Assembly: GCA_014859105.1 (NCBI GenBank)
Contig: JACUUX010000017.1
Span: forward strand, 1 to 50,252
Direction of reading: 5' to 3'
Origin: Nitrospirota bacterium
Lineage (GTDB): Bacteria > Nitrospirota > Thermodesulfovibrionia > Thermodesulfovibrionales > SM23-35
DNA: 50,252 nucleotides
The notes under the pieces are model-generated. The model was not told the DNA's origin. It ran no database searches and saw nothing but the letters and a program-made list of their open reading frames with translations. Numbering within the stretch: the first letter of the stretch is position 1; each line of letters begins with the position of its first letter. The position numbers and the translations under genes were made by a program. Below are positions 33,590 to 49,102 of the stretch, in pieces.

Positions 33590-34591
33590 ATGAGCTGGAT
33601 GTCTCGAACAGATCCAAAGACTTTTTCAATAAAGGTTAATACGTTCCAATTTACCATAGTCCCGAATGAACCTCTTATCCTTCCTGCCTACAAAGGCTCG
33701 ACATTCAGAGGAGGGTTCGGCTATGCCTTTAAACGTGTAGTCTGTGCCATAAGAGATAAAGAATGTCCGGACTGCCTTCTTAAAGAAAAATGTATTTATT
33801 CTTATGTCTTTGAGACCCCGCCGCCTTCGGATTCGACAATAATGAGGAAATATAAAACAGCCCCTCACCCATTTGTCATCGAACCACCGCCAGAAAAAAA
33901 GAGAGGCTTTAAGCCGGGAGATGAGATAACCTTCGGGCTCACCTTAATTGGTAGGGCTATAGACTATCTCCCTTATTTTATTTATACCTTTGATGAACTC
34001 GGAAAGATAGGCATAGGAAAAGGCAAGACTGGTTATGAACTAAAAGAGGTCGGTTGCAATGGAAAGAAGATTTATGATTCCTCAACCAAAACCCTCAAGC
34101 CGTTTAAAACTGCTTCTTTGGATATTGGAAACCCCACTTTGGAAAACCCACAAAATAACCCCCCTTTGGGAAAGGGGGGTGAGGGGGGATTTATAAGTAA
34201 CCTATTAACACTTAATTTTATAACCCCCACCCGCATCCTCTACAACAGCCACCTCATCCTCGACCTTGAATTTCATATCTTAATAAGAAACCTTCTGAGA
34301 AGGCTTTCCCTTCTCTACTATTTCCACTGCAACGGCGACCCCTCAGAATGGGATTTCAAAGGCATGATAGAAAAGGCTAAAGAAGTTAAGGTCAAAAACA
34401 AAGATTTGAGATGGTATGACTGGGAGCGGTATTCAGGGAGGCAGGCGACAAGGTTAAAAATGGGAGGGTTTGTCGGGAGTATAACCTTTGAAGCGGGTAT
34501 AGACCCATTCATACCATTAATTAAAGCAGGTGAGGTTTTACATGTGGGCAAAGGGACCGGGTTTGGTCTGGGGAAGTACAGGATAACATAA
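33590..34591 (+). CDS. cas6: Cas6-family pre-crRNA endoribonuclease
   Basis: Cas6 cuts the repeat RNA to make crRNAs. The 333-residue product matches the RAMP-type Cas6 family (PF10040-like): an N-terminal PAYKGSTFRGGFGYAFKRVVC with a following Cys cluster (CPDCLLKEKC), a central HPFVIEPPP, and the glycine-rich C-terminal end HVGKGTGFGLGKY preceded by GGFVGSITFEA. Near 185-200 a low-complexity stretch NNPPLGKGGEGGF interrupts the normal sequence and is encoded by a C-run/G-run repeat (about 34150-34190). It is probably an insertion that stayed in frame in a loop. The catalytic residue cannot be assigned by eye. Confidence 0.88.
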   Translation: MSWMSRTDPKTFSIKVNTFQFTIVPNEPLILPAYKGSTFRGGFGYAFKRVVCAIRDKECPDCLLKEKCIYSYVFETPPPSDSTIMRKYKTAPHPFVIEPPPEKKRGFKPGDEITFGLTLIGRAIDYLPYFIYTFDELGKIGIGKGKTGYELKEVGCNGKKIYDSSTKTLKPFKTASLDIGNPTLENPQNNPPLGKGGEGGFISNLLTLNFITPTRILYNSHLILDLEFHILIRNLLRRLSLLYYFHCNGDPSEWDFKGMIEKAKEVKVKNKDLRWYDWERYSGRQATRLKMGGFVGSITFEAGIDPFIPLIKAGEVLHVGKGTGFGLGKYRIT

Positions 34592-34652: not shown

Positions 34653-35855
34653 ATGAATGAGTCAAAATTCAAGGAAATCCTTATATTCGTAGCGGGAACT
34701 ACACCACAGATAATCACAGAAACTATCTATGCCTTAATACATCAAGCCCCTCCGGTTTACCCTGATGAAATCCATGTAATCACAACAACACAAGGAAAAA
34801 ACCTCATTAAGGAAAATCTTATTGATTCGGGAAGGTTCAGAGAGTTTTGCAGGGAGTTTAACATGCAAGAGAATATTTTAGATGAGAATTCTATTTTAGT
34901 AGTCAAAGGGAAAAATGCTGATTATCTCGATGATATAAAAGAGGCAAAAGATAATGAATCACTAGGAGATTTTATTACCAATTTTATAAAAGACAAAACA
35001 TTTGATGGCAAAACAAGACTGCATTGTTCTCTTGCAGGCGGAAGAAAAACTATGAGCTTTTACATAGGATCCGCACTTCAGCTCTTCGGTAGACCATGGG
35101 ATAAACTTTACCATGTTTTAGTAACACCTGAATTTGAATCCAATCCTGATTTTTACTACAAGCCTAAGAAAAATAAAGTCCTAACCCCTCTTAATCCCCC
35201 CTTAAATAAGTCTCACCCCTTAAATCCCCCCTTAAATAAGGGGGGAAATGGGGGGTTAAAACCCCTCAATACTAAGGATGCAGAGATCTTTCTTGCTGAA
35301 CTACCGTTTATAAGACTCAGGGATAAGATACCCCTTAACGGTAAAAGTTTTAGAAAGCTTGTTGAAGAAGGGCAGAAGGAAATAGACACAGCACTAACCC
35401 AGCCTTTCTTAAAAATAAACCTGCGCGAAAGAACAGTTTATATAGGGGATGGTACTGTTGATATGGTACCACTTCAATTAATGATTTATACGGCTTATAT
35501 CAGACAGAAGATATACCACTGCAAATATCCTGAAAATGTTTATTGTCTTAAATGCACAGATTGTTTTCTACCCATAGTGGATCTTTTAAGCCGGCCAGCC
35601 CTTGAAAAGATGTCGAGAGACTACAGGACAATCTACAGTATACAACCTAACCGTGCGGACGACCTGCTTGATAAATGTAAGGAAGGGCTTCGTATGGAGA
35701 TTCTTAGATCGAACATAAGCAAGATTAACAGGACAATAAAGGAGCAATTGATGAATGATACCTTGCTGCCATATTACTCAATCACGGCTATAAAACAATA
35801 TGCCGGTAGCCGGTATGGGGTAAGGGTAGAAAAGGGAAAGATAAGGATAGAATGA
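34653..35855 (+). CDS. CARF-domain protein of the TIGR02584 (NE0113) family, annotated ring nuclease/Csm6-like
   Basis: The 400-residue product starts ILIFVAGTTPQIITETIYAL, the hallmark of this CARF family found in type III loci, followed by VITTTQGK and the LHCSLAGGRKTMSFYIGSAL ligand-loop motif. Members are usually annotated as ring nucleases or Csm6-like proteins. I see no clear HEPN R-x4-6-H motif, which favours a cyclic-oligoadenylate degrading or sensing role. At about 180-205 a low-complexity stretch with two NPPLNK units followed by GGNGG is encoded by a C-run/G-run repeat (about 35187-35265), apparently inserted between the CARF and C-terminal domains. It lies between cas6 and an antiparallel toxin-antitoxin pair. 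Confidence 0.8.
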   Translation: MNESKFKEILIFVAGTTPQIITETIYALIHQAPPVYPDEIHVITTTQGKNLIKENLIDSGRFREFCREFNMQENILDENSILVVKGKNADYLDDIKEAKDNESLGDFITNFIKDKTFDGKTRLHCSLAGGRKTMSFYIGSALQLFGRPWDKLYHVLVTPEFESNPDFYYKPKKNKVLTPLNPPLNKSHPLNPPLNKGGNGGLKPLNTKDAEIFLAELPFIRLRDKIPLNGKSFRKLVEEGQKEIDTALTQPFLKINLRERTVYIGDGTVDMVPLQLMIYTAYIRQKIYHCKYPENVYCLKCTDCFLPIVDLLSRPALEKMSRDYRTIYSIQPNRADDLLDKCKEGLRMEILRSNISKINRTIKEQLMNDTLLPYYSITAIKQYAGSRYGVRVEKGKIRIE

Positions 35856-35859
35856 GATG

Positions 35860-36279
35860 TCAGGGATAAACCGTCAACCCGAGTGTCTTGAAGTCCCGGT
35901 CAAAGGAAAAACAGGGGATATTATCGAGCATATGAGTTATTACAACAAAAGAAACGGCATCACAAAAGGATATTTTTTTATCTCTGGAGAGTTTCTTGAA
36001 AACCTCCTCAGCAGATGTTCTAACAGAATCATCAAAATGGACAATATAGAGAACAGGTTTAATTTTATCAAGAAACTCCAAAGCTGTTTTGTAGCTTGCC
36101 CGGTATCTGAGAAGGGTTATGGTTTCGCTTACGATATCCCATGTCGTATAGATCGCAAGTTTATGCTTTTTGCAATATTTGAGAAGTTCTATAGCTTTTT
36201 CATAGTTGGAATCGTCAGGGTATAAAGATGAAAAAAAGAACGATGTGTCACAAAAGACTTTGTTCTGAGGCAGAATCAA
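35860..36279 (-). CDS. PIN-domain toxin (VapC-like)
   Basis: A 139-residue PIN nuclease with the expected acidic residues: Asp in FCDTSFFF near the start, Glu in WDIVSETITLLRY, Asp in KISFCDAVSFVV and Asp in SFDRDF. It should cut RNA when not held by its antitoxin. It is on the minus strand against the cas genes, ends 4 bases after the plus-strand CARF gene, and overlaps the antitoxin gene by 4 bases (ATGA). Confidence 0.85.
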   Translation of the reverse strand: MILPQNKVFCDTSFFFSSLYPDDSNYEKAIELLKYCKKHKLAIYTTWDIVSETITLLRYRASYKTALEFLDKIKPVLYIVHFDDSVRTSAEEVFKKLSRDKKISFCDAVSFVVITHMLDNIPCFSFDRDFKTLGLTVYP

Positions 36280-36545
36280 TTTTTCTCCTCGGCTACATAC
36301 AGATGTTCTTTAATATTCTCGGATATCGGTATCTTATACCCTTTCTTACTTTTCCTGACTTTCCTGCTCAGCTCGAGAAGTTTTGCCGCGGCCTCGCCAG
36401 GCTTGATTTTAGGAGGCGTCCTGATCTCGGCAACTACCTCGTTATGAACGGTAATCTGATAAACAGTCTCAGGCGAAGCCTTCAGAGATTTTATAATCCC
36501 GGGGAGCCTCTTCCTCGCCTCGGAAATAGAGATGACATTTTTCAT
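36276..36545 (-). CDS. Phd/YefM-type antitoxin
   Basis: Started at the ATG at 36545, which is preceded by GAGG at a proper distance, the product has 89 residues: MKNVISISEARKRLPGIIKS then VYQITVHNEVVAEI, the fold typical of Phd-type antitoxins that bind their own promoter. The C-terminal Lys/Glu-rich tail would wrap the PIN toxin. A longer upstream start (36599) is unlikely. It transcribes away from cas10, which begins about 160 bases away on the other strand. Confidence 0.8.
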   Translation of the reverse strand: MKNVISISEARKRLPGIIKSLKASPETVYQITVHNEVVAEIRTPPKIKPGEAAAKLLELSRKVRKSKKGYKIPISENIKEHLYVAEEKN

Positions 36546-36634
36546 ATAAATAACCTCATAATGACATGTATTATCTGTACAGTATTGTACAATATTCATA
36601 AATATTTTTCAGGAATCAGAAAGCAGGTGGGAGA

Positions 36635-36697
36635 ATGATAGAATTTAATGAAAGAGAATATCAGACGGTGATACTGGCAGCATTGTTGCATGAATGA
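36635..36697 (+). pseudogene. Scrap of a cas10 N-terminus
   Basis: A 20-codon frame, MIEFNEREYQTVILAALLHE, sits directly upstream of the real cas10 and has its own GGGAG site. The EYQTVILAALLH part is what many Cas10/Csm1 proteins begin with just before the HD motif (LLHDIGKF), but here it ends with Glu and a stop. It looks like the first residues of another cas10 whose remainder is gone. The stop overlaps the intact gene's alternative start. Confidence 0.55.
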
Positions 36698-36708
36698 AAG
36701 GGGGCTAC

Positions 36709-39339
36709 ATGTTAGATGAAACAATTTATAAAGTTGCCATAGCAGCTTTTATGCATGATATAGGAAAATTTGCTAAGAGGGCCGGTTTTAATGTAAGCCC
36801 GGAGTTCTTAAATAATAATGCTGACCTTTATCAGCCCTATATTAAAGAGCAAAACAGACATACACATAAACATGTTGTTTATACTGCAGCTTTCATTGAT
36901 CATATTGAAAAGTTATTACCTAAACAATTTAACAAAGGTGAATGGGGACTTGGGGATTCATTTATGAATCTTGCCGCTGGACACCATAAGCCCCAAACAC
37001 CTATGCAATGGTTGATTGCTTTAGCTGACAGGGTTAGCAGCGGCTTCGACCGGAATGAATTTGAGAACTATAATCATGAGATTGGGGTTAAGGATTTTAA
37101 AAAGACAAGACTTTTCGCCATTTTTGAGAGTCTGTCACCTGATGAAGTGCCGAAAGGCGATAATTCTGAAGAATATTTTTTCAGGTATCCACTCAGGGAG
37201 CTATCCCCTGAAAGTATTTTTCCCGTTAAACGTGATGATTATCAACTACTCGACAGTAATGAACAAACTAAGGAATATAGCGATCTTTTCTTTAATTTTG
37301 TTGTTTCATTGGAAAAACTGTCACATAAAAATAATATCCCCCTATGGTTTGAACATTTTGACAGTCTCTTTATGATATATGCTTCATACATCCCTTCTGC
37401 AACAGTCGGCAGAATTATACCTGACTCATCTCTTTACGACCATTCAAAGATGACGGCAGCTCTCGCATCTGCATTGTATTTATATCATTCCGGAACGGAC
37501 ACCTTGAATACCGAAAAGATAAAGGCTTATCAGGACAAAAAATTCCTGATAGTGAATGGTAATTTCTATGGTATTCAGAACTTTATATTTTCAGAAGGCG
37601 GAAGCACAGGAAAAGCGGCAGCAAAGCTTTTAAGGGGCAGATCCTTTGCTGTCTCGCTTTTGAGCGAACTTGCTGCTGATATGCTTTGCAGAGAATTAGG
37701 TCTGACTCCTGCTTCGGTTATCTTGAATGCAGCAGGCAAATTTACCATTATTGCCCCTAACCTTCAGGAAACAAAAGATAAAATACTTGCAGTTGAAAAA
37801 GAAATCAATGACTGGCTCATTAGAATGTATCATGGGGAAGCATCTTTCGGCTTTTCATCAAACGAGGCATCCTGCGATGATTTCACGATAAACAGATTTG
37901 ATGAATTGTGGGAAAACCTTTCAAGAATATCAGAAAGAAGAAAATATAGAAAAATAGACATTGGAAAACATGGCGGAGCAGTAGCAGATTATCTGGATCA
38001 GTTCAATAATGATATGAATAAGAAATTATGTCCCTTCTGCGGCAGGAGACCATCAAGTCCGGATGCAGAGAATGATAGGCTTCTTGGCGATGAAAAGTCG
38101 GCATGCAACATCTGCCGCGACCATATTTACATTGGAACAAATCTTGTAAAAGCAAGAAGGCTGGCTGTTACCACACTAAGTGCAGATATTCACGGTGATA
38201 AGCTCAAGGAACCGATATTCGGATCATATCAGGTTTCTCTGGATATTTCCGGCAAATTGACCGAACTCTCCAGAGACGGAACACTTCTAAAATACTGGGA
38301 TATATCCGGCTCAGTGAATGGCACGATCTCAAAAGAGGTAACGGCAAAATTTATTAATGGCTATGTGCCTAAATATACTGATAAAGATGAAACCGAAGAT
38401 ATGTTGGAGAGGCTGTTACATGGAAGCAAATCAGAGAAAAAGAAAAATGAGTTATTTGATGACATTAAGGATGGTAATCCCAAAACATTACATCATATTG
38501 CGAAGATGGCGCTGAACAGAATTCAAAATTCAGAACTTGAAACAAAGCGAAAATATACAGGAATTGAGGCATTGGGAGTAATGAAGTCTGATATTGACAA
38601 CCTTGGCTTATTATTCGCATGCGGTATAAAACAAAATAATCTATCGAAAATGGCTACTTTAAGCAGGCAAACGAATCACTATTTTTCAATCTATCTTCCA
38701 TATGTTTTAAGCATAAAAGAGGAATTCAGGGATATTTATACCGTATTTGCGGGTGGAGACGACCTTTTCCTTATAGGGCCATGGAACCGAATTATTGATT
38801 TTGCATCAGACATAAACCAATCTTTCAGGGAATATGTGTGTGACAACAGCCATGTTTCCATCTCAACAGGGATATGCATAAACAAACCTGACGAACCTGT
38901 TCGTACAGTTTCAGAGAAAGCTGAATATGCTGTAAAAAAATCGAAGGCAAACCGGCGGGATTCGATTACCATTTTCGATGAGGCGATAAAGTGGAAAGAA
39001 TTCGGGGAACTGCGGGGCATAAAATCTGTTATTGAATCATGGTTATCAAAGAGCTATATAAATAATGCCATGCTTTTCAGAATGAATCATTTTTTAAATA
39101 TGGCAAAACAGGAAAAAGCACTTCTGGCAGGAAAAAGAGCAATTGATTTTGATGAGATGGAGTGCCTCAAATGGAAGTCAATGTTCAAATATAATTTGGC
39201 AAGAAATATCGGTAAGGGTTTAAAGGGAGATGAAAAAGAAAAGGCCATTAGAGAAGTTGAAAAAGCTGCCGATTGGCTGATCAACTATGGTGGGGCAATG
39301 AAAATACCGATATGGCAAATAATTTATAACCAAAGATAG
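36709..39339 (+). CDS. cas10: Cas10 (Csm1), type III-A large subunit
   Basis: Cas10 is the signalling and DNase subunit of the Csm complex. I choose the ATG at 36709 (876 residues), which follows AAGGGGG; the upstream ATG at 36694 is less likely. The N-terminal HD nuclease motif is H16-D17 (FMHDIGKF), with AGHHKP later. A zinc-finger region (CPFCGRRP then CNICRDH) lies near the middle. The second palm domain has an intact FAGGDDLF motif at 680-687 (GGDD at 682-685), so cyclic oligoadenylate synthesis is expected. Both activities look intact. It begins the cas10-csm2-csm3-csm4-csm5 operon. Confidence 0.95.
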   Translation: MLDETIYKVAIAAFMHDIGKFAKRAGFNVSPEFLNNNADLYQPYIKEQNRHTHKHVVYTAAFIDHIEKLLPKQFNKGEWGLGDSFMNLAAGHHKPQTPMQWLIALADRVSSGFDRNEFENYNHEIGVKDFKKTRLFAIFESLSPDEVPKGDNSEEYFFRYPLRELSPESIFPVKRDDYQLLDSNEQTKEYSDLFFNFVVSLEKLSHKNNIPLWFEHFDSLFMIYASYIPSATVGRIIPDSSLYDHSKMTAALASALYLYHSGTDTLNTEKIKAYQDKKFLIVNGNFYGIQNFIFSEGGSTGKAAAKLLRGRSFAVSLLSELAADMLCRELGLTPASVILNAAGKFTIIAPNLQETKDKILAVEKEINDWLIRMYHGEASFGFSSNEASCDDFTINRFDELWENLSRISERRKYRKIDIGKHGGAVADYLDQFNNDMNKKLCPFCGRRPSSPDAENDRLLGDEKSACNICRDHIYIGTNLVKARRLAVTTLSADIHGDKLKEPIFGSYQVSLDISGKLTELSRDGTLLKYWDISGSVNGTISKEVTAKFINGYVPKYTDKDETEDMLERLLHGSKSEKKKNELFDDIKDGNPKTLHHIAKMALNRIQNSELETKRKYTGIEALGVMKSDIDNLGLLFACGIKQNNLSKMATLSRQTNHYFSIYLPYVLSIKEEFRDIYTVFAGGDDLFLIGPWNRIIDFASDINQSFREYVCDNSHVSISTGICINKPDEPVRTVSEKAEYAVKKSKANRRDSITIFDEAIKWKEFGELRGIKSVIESWLSKSYINNAMLFRMNHFLNMAKQEKALLAGKRAIDFDEMECLKWKSMFKYNLARNIGKGLKGDEKEKAIREVEKAADWLINYGGAMKIPIWQIIYNQR

Positions 39340-39348
39340 GAGGGCCAT

Positions 39349-39774
39349 ATGAATGTAAACTTTTGGAAAGATAAGACCAAAAAAATCATCGAACCCGAAT
39401 TGTTTTCATCGAAGGCAGATGATTTGGCGAAAGAAGTATATCGGGGGCAACAGCAGAGCAGGGGCAAAGCTAATAAACCTACGCAAATAAGAAAATTCTA
39501 CGATGAGGTGACACGGTTCGGGAGTATCCTTAAAACGAACCCTGATGAGTTTGAAAACGTACTGCCCTACTTGAAAATGCTGAATGCCAAAGCTGCTTAT
39601 GCTATGGGGAGAGATCTTATATCAAAAGAATTCAAAGACTTTATTTCAAACTCTCTCGATCAGATTAAGGATAGAGATGATTTTGAGGCCTTCTCGGGTT
39701 ATTTTGAAGCTTTTATGGGATATTACAAATTTTATGATGAAAAAGGTGGGACTTTGCAAGGAGGTGCCAGATGA
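39349..39774 (+). CDS. csm2: Csm2, small subunit of the type III-A complex
   Basis: A 141-residue, mostly helical protein with the Csm2 pattern QSRGKANKPTQIRKFYDEVT followed by LPYLKMLNAKAAYAMGR. In the complex several Csm2 copies form the inner filament along the crRNA-target duplex. The start follows AGGAGG, and the end overlaps csm3 by 4 bases (ATGA), so it is translationally coupled. Confidence 0.9.
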   Translation: MNVNFWKDKTKKIIEPELFSSKADDLAKEVYRGQQQSRGKANKPTQIRKFYDEVTRFGSILKTNPDEFENVLPYLKMLNAKAAYAMGRDLISKEFKDFISNSLDQIKDRDDFEAFSGYFEAFMGYYKFYDEKGGTLQGGAR

Positions 39775-40505
39775 AACTTACTGAAATTAAAAAAATTGAA
39801 GGAAAAATAACCCTGAAAAGTGGTCTGCATATAGGTTCTGGTAATATGGAAATGCATATCGGAGGCACAGATAGCCCGGTAATTAAACATCCACATACTT
39901 TAGAACCCTATATCCCCGGGTCTTCCCTTAAAGGAAAAGTTAGATCTCTTCTTGAAATGGAAAGTGGGCTAATCCCTTTTGCTTCTGAAGAGGGCGGTTT
40001 AGTGTCGTCGAAAACAATAAGGGATATCCTTGGTAACAATGGTATTTCTCCGGAATTGAAAACTCAATTAGTTAAAAAAGCAGAATCGATATTGAAAATA
40101 TTCGGAAGTAGCGGAGCGGACAGGGAAGACGAAACAGGCTATGGACCAACAAGGGTATCTTTTAGCGATTGTTATCTCAACGATAACTGGACAAAGAAAG
40201 CAAAAGATAATCGCTGGCTTCTAACCGAGGAAAAGTCAGAGAACGTTATCAATAGGATCAAGGGTACCGCTGAACATCCAAGGTTTATAGAGCGAGTGCC
40301 TGAAGGAACACAGTTTGATTTTCGTGTTACATTTAAAATATTACAGGATGGCGATGATCAACTTTTTGATACGCTCCTGAAAGGTCTCAAACTTCTGGAA
40401 CAGGACACACTCGGCGGCAGTGGCAGCAGGGGTTATGGAAGGATTTCTTTTCAATTCAACGATGAAGCAATAGATAGAATGTTTCAAACCTTAAATCCAT
40501 TTTAG
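39771..40505 (+). CDS. csm3: Csm3, backbone RAMP and target-RNA nuclease
   Basis: A 244-residue RAMP protein that lines the crRNA and cuts the target RNA every six nucleotides. The opening LKSGLHIGSG, then MHIGGTDSPVIKHP, places D34 at the position of the catalytic Asp33 of characterised Csm3 proteins, so target cleavage should work. PYIPGSSLKGKVRSLLE is the RAMP glycine-rich motif. The C-terminal GGSGSRGYGRI is another. Confidence 0.93.
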   Translation: MKLTEIKKIEGKITLKSGLHIGSGNMEMHIGGTDSPVIKHPHTLEPYIPGSSLKGKVRSLLEMESGLIPFASEEGGLVSSKTIRDILGNNGISPELKTQLVKKAESILKIFGSSGADREDETGYGPTRVSFSDCYLNDNWTKKAKDNRWLLTEEKSENVINRIKGTAEHPRFIERVPEGTQFDFRVTFKILQDGDDQLFDTLLKGLKLLEQDTLGGSGSRGYGRISFQFNDEAIDRMFQTLNPF

Positions 40506-40518
40506 CAGGAGGATTGCC

Positions 40519-41556
40519 TTGAAACTATATGAAATAACACTTAAACCTTTAAGTGGATTTGGCACTCTTTTGAAAGGAGATACCCTCTTTGGGCACTTTT
40601 GCTGGCAAATTGCTGGCGATGATAGACTATGCGGCTGGCCACTTGGAGAACTGATTGATAATTATCAAATAAAGCCATTCATCGTGTTTTCGTCTGCTTT
40701 TCCAAAGTTTTATATTGAAAAGATCTATCATTATGCCTTTAAAACTCCAGATATTCCACCTGATATGTTATTCGACCTTCCAAAAGAAAAACGTGAGCGC
40801 ATTAGAAAACGTAAAGAATATAAAAGTAAAAAGTGGATGATTATACAGGAGAATAGAAAGTTTAGATCTTTTAAAGAACTCGAATTCCTTTCCGATGAAG
40901 AGGTGATAGGCAAAGCAAATCGAACTGTCAGCAGAGAAACACAAAAGCGTTTGAGATATGCAGGATCAAAACAGTTTATCAGTATGTTTGATCAGCCTCA
41001 CAATACTATAAACAGAATTACTGGTACGACAGGGGAGGGCCGTTTTGCCCCGTTTATCGAAGAACAACAAGTATATTATCCGGAAACAGAACTCGCGCTG
41101 TTCGTGGGATTTGATGAATCTTTCATTAATATTAAACAGGTACTCTCAGGGCTTGAGAGAATTGGCGAATGCGGTTTCGGTAAGGACGCTTCATCAGGCT
41201 TGGGCAAGTTCATGTTAGTCAAGGAAACTGAAAAATATATAAAAGACATGGGATCTGATTCGCCAAATGTCTGCTATACGCTCTCACCCTGCGTGCCGGA
41301 AAAGGATACCTATTCAGATATATTTTTTATGCCATTTACAAGGTATGGAAAACACGGTGATGTCCTTGCAAAATCGGGCAACCCAATCAAGAAGCCGGTT
41401 ATCATGGCTGATGAGGGAGCAGTTTTAATACCGAAAAACAAAGAGGTTTTTGATAAACCATATATAGGACAAGCAGTTACGAATGTATCTAAAGCCGAAC
41501 CAAAGACTGTTGTGCAGGGATACTCCCTCTATATTCCTGTAAGCGTGGAGGCATAA
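40519..41556 (+). CDS. csm4: Csm4, 5'-handle-binding RAMP
   Basis: A 345-residue RAMP that caps the crRNA 5' handle and contacts Cas10. The opening LYEITLKPLSGFGTLLKGDT then LFGHFCWQI is typical of Csm4, and GFGKDASSGLGKF is the late glycine-rich loop. The only plausible start is a TTG at 40519, with AGGAGG at 40507-40512; no nearby ATG fits. It directly abuts csm5. Confidence 0.92.
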   Translation: MKLYEITLKPLSGFGTLLKGDTLFGHFCWQIAGDDRLCGWPLGELIDNYQIKPFIVFSSAFPKFYIEKIYHYAFKTPDIPPDMLFDLPKEKRERIRKRKEYKSKKWMIIQENRKFRSFKELEFLSDEEVIGKANRTVSRETQKRLRYAGSKQFISMFDQPHNTINRITGTTGEGRFAPFIEEQQVYYPETELALFVGFDESFINIKQVLSGLERIGECGFGKDASSGLGKFMLVKETEKYIKDMGSDSPNVCYTLSPCVPEKDTYSDIFFMPFTRYGKHGDVLAKSGNPIKKPVIMADEGAVLIPKNKEVFDKPYIGQAVTNVSKAEPKTVVQGYSLYIPVSVEA

Positions 41557-42699
41557 ATGGACAAACCACTAAAAATAAGACTTCATGTGTTGTCACCAAT
41601 TCATATAGGCTGTGATGATGTTTATGAGCCGACAAGTTTTGTAATAGATACTGACAAGAAAAAGCTGGTTTCTTTTGACCCGCTCGCATTTATTCGTACA
41701 TTAACGGATAGAGAAAGGCAGGAATTAACAGCGATCGCACAGAAAGGAACCCTTCCATCAATTATTGAAATATACCGTTTCATTTTTAATAAAAGGTCAT
41801 CAATCAAAGGGAATGAGATAAGTATCTCACAAGGCATAATTGACAGATATATCTCAGTAAAATCGTTAGCTCTGAATGATAGGAACATAAAACAGGAACT
41901 GAATAATTTTATTATTCCCAGAACTGCCTATCATCCATATAATAACACTCCGTATATTCCCGGCAGTTCTCTGAAAGGCTCGGTAAGAACCGGTTTTCTT
42001 AGTATGTTAGCGCTTGGAGGGGGCACATATAAAGGGCTTGACTATATCCTTGCAGGAAACAAACCGAATAATTCAATTACCAACCGGAGAAATGCACGGG
42101 AGCTTGAACTACAGTTACTAGAGGGGTCATTTGCTGAAGACCCTTTCAGGATGTTGAAAGTATCGGACTTACTGCCGCATACTAATGTTAGGACAAGAGT
42201 ACTTTATGCAATCAACAGGAGAAAACTTGATGGCAGCAAACAGACACGAGGAATTCCCCAGATATTTGAAATAATTGAAGCAGGGTCTTCTTTTGAAGGT
42301 GTAATTAACTTACAGTCCCCTCCTAGCAGTGCAGGAATAAAAAAGCCTATCGATTCGTTAGGTATAAGGGCGTTTTTCAGGGCGGTTCATAAGCACTATG
42401 CGCGTAACTATGGTGTTGAATCAAAGATAGCTGAACAATTGCACTTTAAGATGCCGAGGCCATTGAAATCACATGGTGATATGAAAGAAACAGCCTTTCT
42501 GATACGTGTGGGTAAACATTCAGGAGCTGAGTCAGTAACAATTGAGGGTAACAGACAAATATTAGTAAGAGGACCGAGAGGGAGTAAAGAAATTAAAGAT
42601 CATGCAACAACCATATGGCTTGCCTCAGAACAAGCAAAGCCAGAGAATAATAATGGTCTTTTCCCCTTCGGCTGGGCGGTGATGGAGGTTTTGAATTGA
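41557..42699 (+). CDS. csm5: Csm5, 3'-end RAMP of the type III-A complex
   Basis: A 380-residue RAMP that caps the 3' side of the complex and helps recruit crRNA-trimming nucleases. RLHVLSPIHIGCDDVYEPTS near the start and PYIPGSSLKGSVRTGFLSML near 130-150 are the RAMP signatures. The C-terminal end is PFGWAVMEVLN. It begins immediately after the csm4 stop. A second, orphan copy of this C-terminal end is found at 43329-43382. Confidence 0.93.
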   Translation: MDKPLKIRLHVLSPIHIGCDDVYEPTSFVIDTDKKKLVSFDPLAFIRTLTDRERQELTAIAQKGTLPSIIEIYRFIFNKRSSIKGNEISISQGIIDRYISVKSLALNDRNIKQELNNFIIPRTAYHPYNNTPYIPGSSLKGSVRTGFLSMLALGGGTYKGLDYILAGNKPNNSITNRRNARELELQLLEGSFAEDPFRMLKVSDLLPHTNVRTRVLYAINRRKLDGSKQTRGIPQIFEIIEAGSSFEGVINLQSPPSSAGIKKPIDSLGIRAFFRAVHKHYARNYGVESKIAEQLHFKMPRPLKSHGDMKETAFLIRVGKHSGAESVTIEGNRQILVRGPRGSKEIKDHATTIWLASEQAKPENNNGLFPFGWAVMEVLN

Positions 42700-43387: not shown

Positions 43388-43777
43388 TTATCCCTTATAA
43401 ACCCTCACGCCCGGAATCTGCTCGAAGTGGGTGTCGAGGGTGAAGATAGAGAGGTTGTGTTCGATGACGAGGGCTGCGATGGCAATATCAGTTAAAGGAA
43501 GATTTATGCCTTTTCTCCTCAAGGACAGGGAGAGTTTGCCTGCTTCTATCCATAAATCTGTAGTTATTTCAAGCACATTTACCGCTGTTATCAATTCAGT
43601 AAGATATTGTTCTTCTTTGAAATATTTAAGACCCTGTAAAAGTTCGGCGATTATTATGCCTGTGGAATATACACAATTCTTGTCCAGGAGTCTTGCAATT
43701 TTTTCCCCATATTGTTCATTGCCTTTTAGAAATTCAATAAGAACTGAAGTGTCAACGAGAACTCCATCTTCTGTCAT
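43388..43777 (-). CDS. vapC: VapC-type PIN toxin
   Basis: A 129-residue PIN nuclease. Acidic residues are in place: LVDTSVLIEFLKG at the start, IIIAELLQGL, LPLTDIAIAALV and FTLDTHF. It should act as a tRNA or rRNA-cutting toxin. It overlaps vapB and faces away from the csm operon strand. Confidence 0.88.
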   Translation of the reverse strand: MTEDGVLVDTSVLIEFLKGNEQYGEKIARLLDKNCVYSTGIIIAELLQGLKYFKEEQYLTELITAVNVLEITTDLWIEAGKLSLSLRRKGINLPLTDIAIAALVIEHNLSIFTLDTHFEQIPGVRVYKG

Positions 43778-44216: not shown

Positions 44217-44267
44217 ATGAGCCATATTCATGTATGCCTTGTGGCAGCTTTTAGGAGAACATTATGA
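44217..44267 (+). pseudogene. Scrap of a Card1/Can2-like N-terminus
   Basis: A 16-codon frame, MSHIHVCLVAAFRRTL, has its own AAGGAG site and ends in a TGA that overlaps the card1 ATG. The MSHIHVCLV part resembles the first strand of DUF1887-type CARF nucleases, of which card1 itself (MKKILVSLVSEQTVPN) is one. It may be the start of a former or second copy, or a small leader peptide coupled to card1. Confidence 0.45.
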
Positions 44268-45415
44268 AAAAAATCCTTGTCTCTCTTGTCAGTGAACAGA
44301 CTGTTCCTAATGTTATTGTGACTGAGCATTTTAAGCCAGATATTTACTGGTTCATAAGTACAAAGCGAATGGAAAATGAAGGCAAAACAGGCTGTATCGA
44401 AAATACGCTAAGACTGATGAAGCACGAACTAACAGAGAAAAATGTGCGGACACTGATTGTCAATCAGGATTCATTGGTAGACTGCATTGAAAAGATGGAA
44501 GATATGACAAATTCTGTAGATGAAGAAGCAGGTTATGTAGTGAATCTCACAGGTGGGAATAAAATAATGGCAATTGCAGCCCTTGAGGTTTTTAGAGACA
44601 TTGGCCAAAAAGTAATCATTGGATATATGCCTCTTGGCAAAAATGAGTTTATTCAAATTTATCCAAAGAAGAGACCACTGAAGACTTATGAAATCCCGGA
44701 GCGGTTGGCCTTAGAAGAGTACTTATCCTGCTATGGCTTTGAAATAAAAAACAAAAAGAAATTATCTTCAGTTGTATCTGCCTCGCTATCAAGAGAGACC
44801 CTTACAGAATGGATAATGAATAATTTTAAGGAGCTAAAAGGATTGCTAGGATTTTTATATAAAAACACAGGTAACAAAAGAAAAGAAGCTCAGGTTGAAA
44901 TGTCAGATAAATTTAATAGGGAACCATCAAGAGTTGAAAAGGAATTTTTAGAGAAATTTGATTTTAAACTTAAAAATAGAGTAGTTGAGAAGAAGCTAAA
45001 GAAAGATGAGATTATTTACCTGACAGGTGGCTGGTTTGAGGAATACGTATTTAATGAAGTTTATAAAATGACGCAGGAGAAGTTTGTCAACGATGTAAAG
45101 ATGGGAATACAGATTAGCAGCGCTTCAGGTGCTGATAATGAATTGGATATAGCTTTTATGAAAGATAACACCTTTTACCACATAGAGTGTAAAACTCTCG
45201 GAGAGGAGGAAGAACAGTCCATCATCGGCGATGAAGTTTATAAAAAAGGGGCTATCCTACCATTGCTTGGTAAAGGTGGCAAGGCATTTATATGTACAAC
45301 ACATACCTCGATTAAACCGAGTCTTTCAAACAGGGCACGAGATTACAACATAGAAATTTTTAATCTTGCACAAATAAGGAATTTGCCAAAAGAATTATCT
45401 GAGAGGATAAGATGA
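44264..45415 (+). CDS. card1: Card1/Can2-type cyclic-oligoadenylate-activated nuclease
   Basis: The 383-residue product follows the Card1/Can2 (DUF1887) plan: a CARF domain (about 1-140; ILVSLVSEQTVPN, VVNLTGGNKIMAIAAL), a linker, and a PD-(D/E)xK nuclease domain (about 240-383; YLTGGWFEEYVFNEV, NELDIAFMKD and HIECKT). Characterised members bind cA4 and then nick DNA and/or cut RNA. The nuclease residues are present, so an active effector is expected. It has its own AGGAG site, and its end overlaps the next small gene by 4 bases. Confidence 0.9.
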   Translation: MKKILVSLVSEQTVPNVIVTEHFKPDIYWFISTKRMENEGKTGCIENTLRLMKHELTEKNVRTLIVNQDSLVDCIEKMEDMTNSVDEEAGYVVNLTGGNKIMAIAALEVFRDIGQKVIIGYMPLGKNEFIQIYPKKRPLKTYEIPERLALEEYLSCYGFEIKNKKKLSSVVSASLSRETLTEWIMNNFKELKGLLGFLYKNTGNKRKEAQVEMSDKFNREPSRVEKEFLEKFDFKLKNRVVEKKLKKDEIIYLTGGWFEEYVFNEVYKMTQEKFVNDVKMGIQISSASGADNELDIAFMKDNTFYHIECKTLGEEEEQSIIGDEVYKKGAILPLLGKGGKAFICTTHTSIKPSLSNRARDYNIEIFNLAQIRNLPKELSERIR

Positions 45416-45936: not shown

Positions 45937-46197
45937 ATGGGTAACTCAACAAAACAGGCAAACTTTCTTCTACCTGAAGATTTGCTTGATGAACTTAAGA
46001 TGACAGTCTCCAGAAGACAACAGAGTAAAGTTGTAGCGGATGCGTTGAGGAAGGAACTTAAACGATTAAAATTGGAAAAAGTTCTTCAGACAAGCTTCGG
46101 AGCATGGAAGGATAAGCACCATCCTGAATTAAAAGAAGGCACTGAGGCATTTGTCAGAAAATTAAGAAAATCAACAAGATCGAGCCGCTCTAAATGA
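45937..46197 (+). CDS. vapB: VapB-like antitoxin (plus-strand pair)
   Basis: Started at the ATG at 45937 after GGGAGG, the product has 86 residues: an N-terminal ribbon-helix-helix-type stretch (QANFLLPEDLLDELKMTVSR then QQSKVVADALRKELKRL) and a basic C-terminal tail. An in-frame start at 45862 lies inside the Csx3-like gene and is unlikely. It overlaps vapC by 4 bases. A palindromic operator candidate lies upstream. Confidence 0.83.
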   Translation: MGNSTKQANFLLPEDLLDELKMTVSRRQQSKVVADALRKELKRLKLEKVLQTSFGAWKDKHHPELKEGTEAFVRKLRKSTRSSRSK

Positions 46198-46574
46198 AAA
46201 GTGTCCTTGTTGATACAGACATCCTTATAAACTTTTTGAGAGGCAGAGAAAAAGCCAAAGACTTCCTATTGTCACTTCTTGAAGAATCAACAATTTATTG
46301 TTCTGTAATATCGATTGCAGAGATACACGCCGGCATGAAAGAACATGAAAGGGAAAAGACAATTGAATTCATAGATAGTCTGAATATCGTTGATGTAACA
46401 CGCGATATTGCTGAAAAGGCCGGAAAATATAAGAGAGAAGAAAAAAAACGAATTCTTGAACTGGATGATTGTTTTGTTGCAGCGACTGCCTTTATCAAAG
46501 GAGCTATTCTTGCCACGGGAAATGGAAAACATTATCCAATGGTAGATATAAAAAAAGAAATTTTTACCTTATAA
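46194..46574 (+). CDS. vapC: VapC-type PIN toxin (plus-strand pair)
   Basis: A 126-residue PIN nuclease with the full acidic set: LVDTDILINFLRG, SIAEIHAG, LDDCFVAATA, and a late TGNGKHYP loop. It is translated with the antitoxin just upstream. An AATATTG-TCG-CAATATT hairpin followed by TCTTTT (46605-46626) may end this transcript. Confidence 0.88.
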   Translation: MKSVLVDTDILINFLRGREKAKDFLLSLLEESTIYCSVISIAEIHAGMKEHEREKTIEFIDSLNIVDVTRDIAEKAGKYKREEKKRILELDDCFVAATAFIKGAILATGNGKHYPMVDIKKEIFTL

Positions 46575-46774: not shown

Positions 46775-47056
46775 ATGGAGAGGACTCTTTATCTTATAGC
46801 TTATGACATCACAAACGACCGCAGGCTGAATCGTGTGCGCCACTTTCTCAAAGGGTACAGCACAGGTGGTCAGAAGTCTGTTTATGAGTGCTTCCTGACA
46901 GACGGAGAACTCAAATATGTTAAGAGGAAGTTGGAGAGATTAATAGACGAGGATGAAGATAGGGTTCATATCTTAACTATTGACGGTAGAAGCAGAACAC
47001 ATACACTCGGAGTTGCTGTTCAACCAAAGGATCCGGAATATTTCTACATAGGATAA
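46775..47056 (+). CDS. cas2: Cas2 (first copy)
   Basis: A 93-residue ferredoxin-fold protein that bridges Cas1 dimers in spacer integration. LYLIAYDITNDRRLNRVRHF is the typical Cas2 opening, with the conserved Asp in YDI. GGQKSVYECFLTDGEL follows in the usual place. A weak ribosome site precedes it. It is followed after 6 bases by cas1. Confidence 0.93.
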   Translation: MERTLYLIAYDITNDRRLNRVRHFLKGYSTGGQKSVYECFLTDGELKYVKRKLERLIDEDEDRVHILTIDGRSRTHTLGVAVQPKDPEYFYIG

Positions 47057-47062
47057 AGGAAT

Positions 47063-48022
47063 ATGGGAACACTTTATATTGACAGAAAAGACCTTCATAT
47101 CAAGCACGATGGCAATGCCCTCGCATTTTACTCAAATGAAAAAAGGGAGGGCATTGTTCCGATGAATCCTCTAAAAAGGGTAATCATGGTAGGGAATATT
47201 TCAATTGAGACTTCTGTCCTGCATAGGCTTTCTAATGAAGGTATAAGTGTCCTTTTTCTATCCGGGAAAAGGTTGAGGTTTTGCGGAATGATACATGGAA
47301 GACTACATAACAACGGCTTCTTGAGAGTCAAACAATATGAAAAGTCCCTATCTGATTTTTCTGTGAAGATAGCAAAGGATATTATAAAAAGGAAAGTAGA
47401 AGGACAAAGAGAGTTTCTTATGGATGTAATAGAGAGTAGACCTGATTTGCGTTTTCCAATGACAAATGCAGCAGGCGTTCTTGGAAAAATACTTAAAAAA
47501 ATGCTGAGTCAAGAACTTGAGATGGAAACCCTCAGAGGACTTGAAGGCGGCGCATCATCAAGATATTTTCAAGCATTTACCAAAATATTTCCTGAATCTC
47601 TCAAATTCAAGAAAAGAAATAGGCGGCCTCCTGAAGACCCGGTAAATGCCATGCTGTCGCTCTGCTATACCCTGCTTCATTATGAGTTAGTAAGGGAGAT
47701 AGAGGTTATCGGTCTTGATCCCACAATCGGTTTTTATCATCAGTTTGAGTATGGAAGGGAGTCTCTGGCATGTGACCTTGTTGAACTCTACAGGACAGAT
47801 GTTGACAGATTTGTGCGGGAACTTTTCAGGGATAGGACTTTTGCTGCGCGAGATTTTGCTCAAAAAGATGAGAGACCAGGCTGCTATCTCAAGAAAGGAA
47901 GCAGGGGAAGATTTTATCCCATTTACGAAGAATGGGCAAAAAGTATGAGGCCCCAATTTATAAGCGAGGTAAGAACCTTAGCCGTGAGGATAATGGATGG
48001 ACAGGACATTATACCTGAATGA
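47063..48022 (+). CDS. cas1: Cas1 integrase (catalytically intact)
   Basis: Cas1 is the integrase that inserts new spacers. The 319-residue product has an N-terminal beta domain (LYIDRKDLHIKHDGNALAFY) and the helical catalytic domain. The metal ligands are present: E161 in RGLEGGASSRYF, H226 in IGFYHQF and D238 in SLACDLVE. It overlaps cas1' by 26 bases at its 3' end. Confidence 0.95.
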   Translation: MGTLYIDRKDLHIKHDGNALAFYSNEKREGIVPMNPLKRVIMVGNISIETSVLHRLSNEGISVLFLSGKRLRFCGMIHGRLHNNGFLRVKQYEKSLSDFSVKIAKDIIKRKVEGQREFLMDVIESRPDLRFPMTNAAGVLGKILKKMLSQELEMETLRGLEGGASSRYFQAFTKIFPESLKFKKRNRRPPEDPVNAMLSLCYTLLHYELVREIEVIGLDPTIGFYHQFEYGRESLACDLVELYRTDVDRFVRELFRDRTFAARDFAQKDERPGCYLKKGSRGRFYPIYEEWAKSMRPQFISEVRTLAVRIMDGQDIIPE

Positions 48023-48827
48023 AAATAAGGGGTTGACAGTCTTCAGAGACGGTCCTTCCATATGGATTAAAGAAGAAGGGAGGGCTGGAAGAAGAATACC
48101 TGCAAGACTCATAGGCAGAGTTGTAATTATAGGAAACCTGCGATTCGAGGCTGGAGTTATTACGCTTTTTACAGATAATGATATCCCAGTTACTTTTATC
48201 AACCACAGAGGAGATGCTGCCGCCGTTGCTATGCCGTACAATCATCATTTACCAAGGCATTATGAAGAACAGAAGGTGTTCCTCGAGACAGAAGAAAATA
48301 CTGATAGATTCAAAAGGTGGGTTTATGCAAAGCGAAGAGAAGCTCAGATAAGGGTTGTGAATCGTCTCTCAAAAGGGGTTGCAAGGTCATTTGCATATAA
48401 AGGTTTCCGGGAAAAAGATTATCAGAAGTTCATCGAGGAGTTTAAGCCTGCTGGAGCAGTCAGGGGTGAATATTGGCGGGTTGCATCAGGAATAGCAAGT
48501 AATCTTTTTAGAGAGATGACGATTGCTTGTATTGTTAAGGCTGACCTTGACCCCCATCCTGGAATTATATACAGGAGACACAATTTTGGTTTTGCACTTG
48601 ATCTATGCCGTGCGCTCGAAGCAGAGATTGATCTTCAATGTATCCAGTTTTTGAAAAATGCAAGGGGAAAAGATTTTCTTGTAAATAGTTCTGCTGGATG
48701 GGTCATATCAAAAGAAGGCATGAGAGACATTATCCACAGGTATGAAAACAGGAGAAAGCAATTACACGAGATGGTAGAAAGGTTGATAGATGATATCTTC
48801 GAGCTGATGAGGGAATTAAGAAGATGA
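47997..48827 (+). CDS. Cas1-like paralog with altered active site (cas1')
   Basis: A 276-residue Cas1 homolog, shown by LYLNENKGLTVFRDGPSIWI, RIPARLIGRVVIIGN and the LDPHPG motif. At the catalytic Glu position the sequence reads PAGAVRGEYW, with Ala152 in place of Glu. At the His position it reads GIIY, with Tyr192 (a His lies three residues later at 195). The Asp position appears kept as D202 in FALDL. It is also about 40 residues shorter than the neighbour. It is probably not an active integrase by itself. It starts 26 bases inside cas1 and overlaps the second cas2 by 4 bases, so all four genes are co-translated. Confidence 0.85.
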   Translation: MDRTLYLNENKGLTVFRDGPSIWIKEEGRAGRRIPARLIGRVVIIGNLRFEAGVITLFTDNDIPVTFINHRGDAAAVAMPYNHHLPRHYEEQKVFLETEENTDRFKRWVYAKRREAQIRVVNRLSKGVARSFAYKGFREKDYQKFIEEFKPAGAVRGEYWRVASGIASNLFREMTIACIVKADLDPHPGIIYRRHNFGFALDLCRALEAEIDLQCIQFLKNARGKDFLVNSSAGWVISKEGMRDIIHRYENRRKQLHEMVERLIDDIFELMRELRR

Positions 48828-49102
48828 AGGCTAATTATCTCGTTTGCTACGACATAAGCGATCCTCGACGTCTGACAAGGGTTTTTAAACTCATGAAGGG
48901 TAATGGGATTCATCTTCAGTATTCCGTATTCCATTGTTCTTTCACATGGCCGAGGCTCTTAGAAGTTAAGGATAAATTAAGATTGATTATTGATAAAAGG
49001 AAGGATGATGTAAGAATTTATCCTCTGCCTTCAGAGGAGAAGGTAATTATAATGGGTTGTGGAGACAGGGTGCCGGACGGTGTTGATATTTTTATTGAAT
49101 AA
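48824..49102 (+). CDS. cas2: Cas2 (second copy, cas2')
   Basis: A 92-residue Cas2: NYLVCYDISDPRRLTRVFKL, then LQYSVFHCSFTWPRLLEVKD. The conserved Asp and the fold pattern are present. It differs clearly from the first copy, so it is not a recent duplicate. It overlaps cas1' by 4 bases and lies directly before the CRISPR leader. Confidence 0.93.
   Translation: MKANYLVCYDISDPRRLTRVFKLMKGNGIHLQYSVFHCSFTWPRLLEVKDKLRLIIDKRKDDVRIYPLPSEEKVIIMGCGDRVPDGVDIFIE

Follow-up and report, generated by a model that had tools for sequence, protein, structure and literature searches.

A frame of about 20 codons directly upstream of csm1/cas10 in a 50,252-nt stretch of Nitrospirota DNA (the window) is probably the retained 5′ end of a former cas10 of another lineage, lineage A, left behind when the effector module was replaced in situ and kept as a coupled leader. 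The frame derives from cas10, the same flank runs into different 3′ modules in different genomes, the cut recurs at one point, and the stop and start codons at the junctions are placed as in an operon. The locus in the window reads as follows.

33590..34591, + strand: cas6, in the fixed 5′ portion of this locus (NCBIfam TIGR01877, E=6.8e-13, below the curated cut-off)
34653..35855, + strand: gene of the CRISPR ring nuclease/Csm6 family, likewise in the fixed 5′ portion (TIGR02584, E=6.9e-59)
35860-36279, − strand: divergent PIN toxin, in the interval between ring nuclease and stub (PF01850, E=4.3e-7)
36276-36599, − strand: Phd/YefM-like antitoxin, in the same interval (PF02604, E=0.0056, below cut-off)
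36635-36697, + strand: cas10 stub, ATG plus 19 codons plus TGA, reading MIEFNEREYQTVILAALLHE and then the stop, directly 5′ of csm1/cas10
36697..36704, + strand: AAAGGGGG, probable Shine-Dalgarno sequence of the present cas10, at the stop of the stub (read from the sequence)
36709..39339, + strand: present cas10/csm1, lineage A′ (TIGR02578, E=1.5e-189; start given by the ORF caller, 36694)
39349..42699, + strand: csm2, csm3, csm4 and csm5, the rest of the putatively exchanged module (TIGR01870, TIGR02582, TIGR01903, TIGR01899)

The stub has a Shine-Dalgarno-like sequence of its own upstream (GGTGGGAG), and what lies downstream is a complete type III-A set, csm1/cas10 with csm2-5. The stub TGA overlaps the ATG at 36694 that the ORF caller takes as the cas10 start. 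A start at 36709 (MLDETIYK...) is likelier, because it lies a few nucleotides after AAAGGGGG and matches the starts of relatives (the MxDETVYK position); the distance from stub stop to cas10 start is −4 with the former and +11 with the latter. The same kind of purine run is found at the end of the stub in relatives. Homologues of cas6 stand 5′ of many of the relatives' stubs, and the ring nuclease gene is directly 5′ of the stub in G016, G013, G162 and G114 and directly 5′ of an intact lineage-A cas10 in G122, G168, G339 and G401. In G302, a related PIN gene (66%), part of a related pair, occupies the corresponding interval, so stub and toxin-antitoxin block may move as a unit. Elsewhere in the window, downstream of csm5, a Card1-type CARF nuclease (PF23400, PF09002) lies at 44264-45415, next to additional genes for PIN toxins (43388-43777 and 46194-46574). 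Positions 46775-49102 have the order cas2-cas1-cas1-cas2 (two cas2 and two cas1-like genes), a quartet also present in G062, G126, G143, G339 and G088.

What is the origin of the stub? It corresponds to the first 19-20 codons of lineage-A csm1/cas10, up to the HD motif, followed by TGA. A single-query search with its 20 residues finds the cas10 N-terminus of G064 (80% identity; frame of 879 aa; E=7.9e-6 per genome) and that of G062 (74% identity; frame of 818 aa), the matches spanning 19-20 residues. In G122, a full-length protein that begins in the same way is a Csm1 (NCBIfam TIGR02578, E=1e-186), and in other Nitrospirota the intact lineage-A cas10 follows cas6 and the ring nuclease gene, in the same place as the stub. 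By sequence, then, the window frame is the N-terminus of another Csm1-type Cas10 lineage. The preliminary description had recognised the frame at 36635-36697 as the start of a cas10; its coordinates are exact and its matches are the N-termini of full-length cas10 frames. The search that it proposed, of the 20 residues against Cas10 N-termini, gives close matches outside the genome (G064 and G062), placing the lineage intact in relatives. Compared with the N-terminal HD domain of Csm1/Cas10 (TIGR02578), the 20-mer covers a Csm1 lineage from its first residue to the HD motif but ends at or just after the first H and contains no catalytic domain; the HD and palm (cyclase) domains of a working Cas10 are absent, since the frame stops at codon 20. 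The 20-mer alone retrieved no NCBIfam or Pfam model at E<=1, as expected for a query of only 20 residues, and had no tblastn match among plasmids. Among PDB sequences, profile A1 (below) matched nothing beyond the generic LLHD motif that HD phosphohydrolases share (E 0.72-0.86).

Lineage-A stubs are common in the order. Profile A1, built from ten lineage-A cas10 starts and searched in 176 genomes of the order, has 30 matches in 28 of them: 17 stop-terminated stubs in 16 genomes (G000, G004, G005, G012, G013, G016, G018, G026, G046, G051, G068, G074, G114, G124, G127 and, twice, G162), 10 cas10 frames that are long or, in some cases, split or cut by a contig end (G009, G062, G064, G074, G122, G126, G142, G143, G157 and G168), and 3 that were left unclassed. 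G097 and G113 (contig ends) and G174 (weak and without cas genes) were kept out of the stub count. A second set, 395 genomes sampled from the phylum and partly shared with the first, adds four stubs (G199, G302, G335 and G377) and four cas10 frames (G199, G213, G339 and G401), bringing the lineage-A total to 21 stop-terminated stubs in 20 genomes. Many of the sampled genomes are fragmented assemblies. A control profile of csm3 starts placed none of its 37 matches in short frames, and a profile of ring nuclease starts placed 5 of 45 in frames below 200 aa, one of the five at a contig edge. Set against these, the proportion of lineage-A stubs, 17 of 27 classed matches, gives Fisher p=6e-9 (csm3) and p=8e-6 (ring nuclease), values that are indicative only because the matches are related to one another. 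Several candidates were discarded: G038 is a frameshifted cas10-B, the contigs end at G049:C32 and G083, and a leader beginning M[DE]YQVREYQ... before the A′ cas10 of G090 and G037 scores 4.7 and 3.0 bits with nhmmer, within the range of shuffled sequence. The last of these (L090, L101) is a frame of 34-35 codons with a −4 stop/start overlap, conserved in both genomes. Some stubs are broken, with two stops in G068, one stop and loss of frame in G005, and a cut at about codon 14 in G127; in G041, of the same genus as G068, the stub is gone. Thus, no stub is indispensable. The short frame stands in 20 genomes, and so is a recurrent element, possibly a retained leader, rather than a private fossil. 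Its conservation before cas10 in relatives, an outcome that the preliminary description had counted as refuting, leaves its cas10 origin standing.

Where the contig permits, a stub is usually found after cas6 and/or the ring nuclease gene and directly before the first effector gene, the site of the intact lineage-A cas10 in G122, G168, G339 and G401. At least four kinds of effector module lie 3′ of lineage-A stubs, namely Csm with two other cas10 lineages, Cmr, and a Csx11-type module. The next gene is a lineage A′ csm1 in G000, G016, G026, G051, G127 and G068, a lineage B csm1 in G012 and G335, the cmr1 of a Cmr2 module in, for example, G013, a cmr1 with Csx11 in G018 and, by similarity, G124, another cmr1-like gene in G114 and G162, and a 641-aa gene without family assignment in G004. 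In G074 the stub is followed by an apparent cmr1 start and then by an intact cas10. The two lineage-A stubs of G162 flank a short stretch that, read by eye, holds an apparent toxin start and an antitoxin; the 86-aa frame between them has no significant Pfam match. In G013, cmr1 (L081:2489-3817) encodes an MntA-like antitoxin domain at its C-terminus (NF047752, E=1.9e-11, below cut-off), and its homologue in G005 has a similar length and C-terminus. The preliminary description had proposed that an older cas10 was replaced at its 5′ end by the present one. Replacement of an older cas10 agrees with the origin of the stub and with the intact lineage at the same locus position in relatives. Its scale was larger than the 5′ end of one gene: the entire downstream effector module was exchanged, with the same stub standing before Csm, Cmr and Csx11-type modules.

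Lineage A is not the only source of stubs. G037 has MIDETVYKIALAGLLHDIGKFAER- before a lineage-B cas10, 96% identical to the cas10 of G090 over 24 residues. G130 has MSDTVYKIALAGLMHDVGK- before a gene called cmr1-like from its resemblance to that of G114, with no significant NCBIfam match, and a similar stub precedes a lineage-A cas10 in G126. G025 has, by eye only, a probable decayed stub of another lineage. All of these other-lineage stubs stop within a few codons past the HD motif. Stubs are stacked in G005 and G074, and from such stacks the order of replacements can be read. For example, G005 has a decayed lineage-A stub, then a lineage-B cas10 stub, then cmr1, giving the order A, B, Cmr. 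When full cas10 proteins were compared with 34 loci by tblastn, the only matches outside the main genes were N-terminal leftovers of ~20-30 residues, apart from contig-cut or masked cas10 genes (G068 and G009) and a few weak matches. Insertion into cas10 was considered and rejected, no 3′ piece of an old cas10 being found downstream in the examined stretches; only G199, where Cmr separates a stub from an intact csm set of lineage A, looks like an insertion or a tandem arrangement. There (L181), stub, Cmr module and csm set lie on one strand, 12.7 kb apart, possibly as an exchange intermediate.

In several cases the exchange is visible at the flanks. G051, G124 and G401 share the 60-nt region before the start, with local scores of 45-49 against a largest score of 16 among 325 shuffled pairs, and 47-49 of the 57 bases of their stub sequences are common. 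Beyond the shared part lie an A′ cas10 (csm) in G051, a cmr1 (cmr1b) in G124, and an intact lineage-A cas10 in G401. G016 and G013 are 96.4% and 93.8% identical through the ring nuclease gene and thereafter have csm and cmr1, respectively. Identity between their stubs is lower than upstream (44/57); since it drops already at the stub, crossovers can fall at either stub edge. Similarly, the second stub of G162 and that of G335 have their upstream region in common and are followed by cmr1 and cas10-B. Both identities and synteny in G051/G124/G401 and G016/G013 thus have the pattern of in situ module exchange, the same flank with different effector modules, and closely similar 5′ flanks that run into different modules mark the stub as the scar left where whole modules were replaced, at a junction that recurs near the HD codons. 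How many independent events there were is uncertain, because stubs do not group by downstream module (similarity 0.742 within and 0.738 between modules, p=0.40). Five loci (L077, L080, L081, L183 and L184) have a ~24-nt hairpin-like insert (GATCCCGATTCGTCGGGGAT type) in the stub, located at one and the same nucleotide between its H and D codons. The genomes concerned, G004, G013, G162, G335 and G377, belong to several families and have different downstream genes; G074 has a variant, and the pattern has only a few looser matches elsewhere in 0.7 Mb. The insert was rejected as a sign of a single ancestor, hairpin-bearing stubs being no more alike than others (0.72 vs 0.74).

A translationally coupled leader ORF, or bicistronic leader, is a short ORF 5′ of a gene, with its stop overlapping or adjoining the start of that gene and with the gene's Shine-Dalgarno sequence inside the ORF or next to it. 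The stubs resemble such leaders in the layout of stop, start and Shine-Dalgarno sequence and differ in deriving from a replaced gene; judged from this layout, the stub may now serve as a translation-coupled leader. With an imperfect control (the other non-gene frame) and hand-chosen starts of the next genes, the stub stop lies within −8 to +3 nt of the next start at 13 of 20 junctions, compared with 3 of 20 in the other frame (Fisher p=0.003), and overlaps it by the −4/−1 arrangement at 7 junctions vs 0 (p=0.008). Taking the window cas10 to start at 36709 leaves 12 of 20 within the interval (p=0.008). These 20 junctions are what remained of 22 after the rows for G090 and G037 were dropped, and they omit G074 (a cmr1 without a start) and the broken frames of G068, G005 and G377. 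The VGK/IGR codons run into the next Shine-Dalgarno sequence in G016, G026, G046 (as GATGTGGGGAGGGAGGGGTAGATG), G018, G124 and G162.

The stubs are also constrained in sequence. Differences by codon position are 0.21/0.08/0.46 among 17 stubs and 0.23/0.09/0.43 among 11 intact lineage-A starts, and four hairpin-bearing stubs have minimum changes of 7:2:14 by codon position. Pooled within module classes, pN/pS is 0.136 for stubs, close to the 0.153 of intact lineage-A cas10 N-termini and below the 0.24-0.45 of downstream genes. These values are what would be expected of a functional leader micropeptide, in which the cas10-derived 20-mer (a helix plus LLHD) is itself selected, for example in a regulatory or partner role towards the effector encoded downstream, and only what lies downstream is swapped. 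However, a low pN/pS implies strong selection on the peptide only if each module class arose once. With synonymous sites near saturation and stubs not grouped by class, constraint from before truncation, or refreshment from intact genes, can explain the low ratio; profile detection also favors conserved stubs, and G068, G005, G127 and G041 have broken or lost theirs. A micropeptide is an unlikely explanation. The same decay and loss suit a passive scar, whereby the stubs have no role, are all recent, and reflect frequent exchange near the cas10 start, perhaps through GTGGGGAAG microhomology between HD codons and Shine-Dalgarno sequence. The run of VGK/IGR codons into the new Shine-Dalgarno sequence at many junctions is in keeping with this, but stop/start coupling above that of the other frame and stubs as constrained as intact genes are not, making a scar without a role rather doubtful.

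Two further explanations concern the origin of the stub. A stub made from the present cas10 itself, by tandem duplication or slippage at its 5′ end, would account for two frames that both open as a Cas10 does, and in G199 one locus contains a stub together with an intact gene of its lineage. Yet the window stub resembles lineage A rather than the A′ N-terminus that follows it, and many stubs precede cmr1, which has no such N-terminus, so that duplication is very improbable. Chance resemblance, or a fragment of another HD-domain protein, is scarcely credible: the LLHD motif is indeed present in many HD phosphohydrolases, but the full-length matches, which extend over 19-20 residues, are Csm1 genes located in cas loci, and of the short matches with readable context all but the weak one in G174 lie in cas loci.

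How could a retained lineage-A 5′ end have come to lead a different module? The resident type III effector module would have been swapped in situ for the present A′ Csm module, with cas6, the ring nuclease gene and the first codons of the old cas10 staying and everything downstream being exchanged. The same exchange would have recurred in Nitrospirota, bringing in various modules and displacing, besides lineage A, at least two further cas10 lineages. The junction repeatedly falls just past the HD codons (..LLHD-V/I-G-K, often GATGTGGGGAAG), and the purine-rich end of these codons often enters the Shine-Dalgarno sequence of the incoming first gene. We infer that the stub is read by ribosomes and links the translation of the new first gene to the start signals of the old one, which would be why it is kept. 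In addition, the shared ~60 nt may aid further exchange as a short homology for all modules. Tentatively, the cas10 5′ end could even be a docking site, a short, selected leader of cas10 origin that supplies start signals and 60 nt of homology, such that Csm, Cmr and Csx11 modules would be swapped like cartridges beside an unchanged cas6 and ring nuclease gene, and stacked stubs would record successive immune systems.

It is established that effector modules are exchanged in situ, and loci of type III are described as especially prone to this (PMC6452270, PMC5704561, PMC4390879). Modules are exchanged beside fixed “attractor” genes, such as cas6 and adaptation genes (PMC6452270), with a primary example in PMC5704561. 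The stub loci share with these accounts a fixed cas6 side and effector genes replaced by other variants, subtypes or types. Where these sources treat exchange, it is at the level of genes and is inferred from trees and synteny; the stub loci, by contrast, show the junction to the nucleotide, have it repeatedly at the HD codons of cas10, and retain a short, putatively coupled frame there, in some cases several in a stack. A search of titles and abstract openings, with subscription papers mostly outside its scope, found no description of cas10 stubs or of a fixed junction.

Effector-module exchange is a known driver of CRISPR diversity, and here its junction can be read at the nucleotide level. 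The junction recurs at one point of one gene, where a fossil of the replaced system is preserved. The mechanism of exchange thereby becomes testable, whether it is shared 5′ homology, Shine-Dalgarno microhomology, or selection for a coupled leader. For annotators, a short frame before cas10 or cmr1 is not random.
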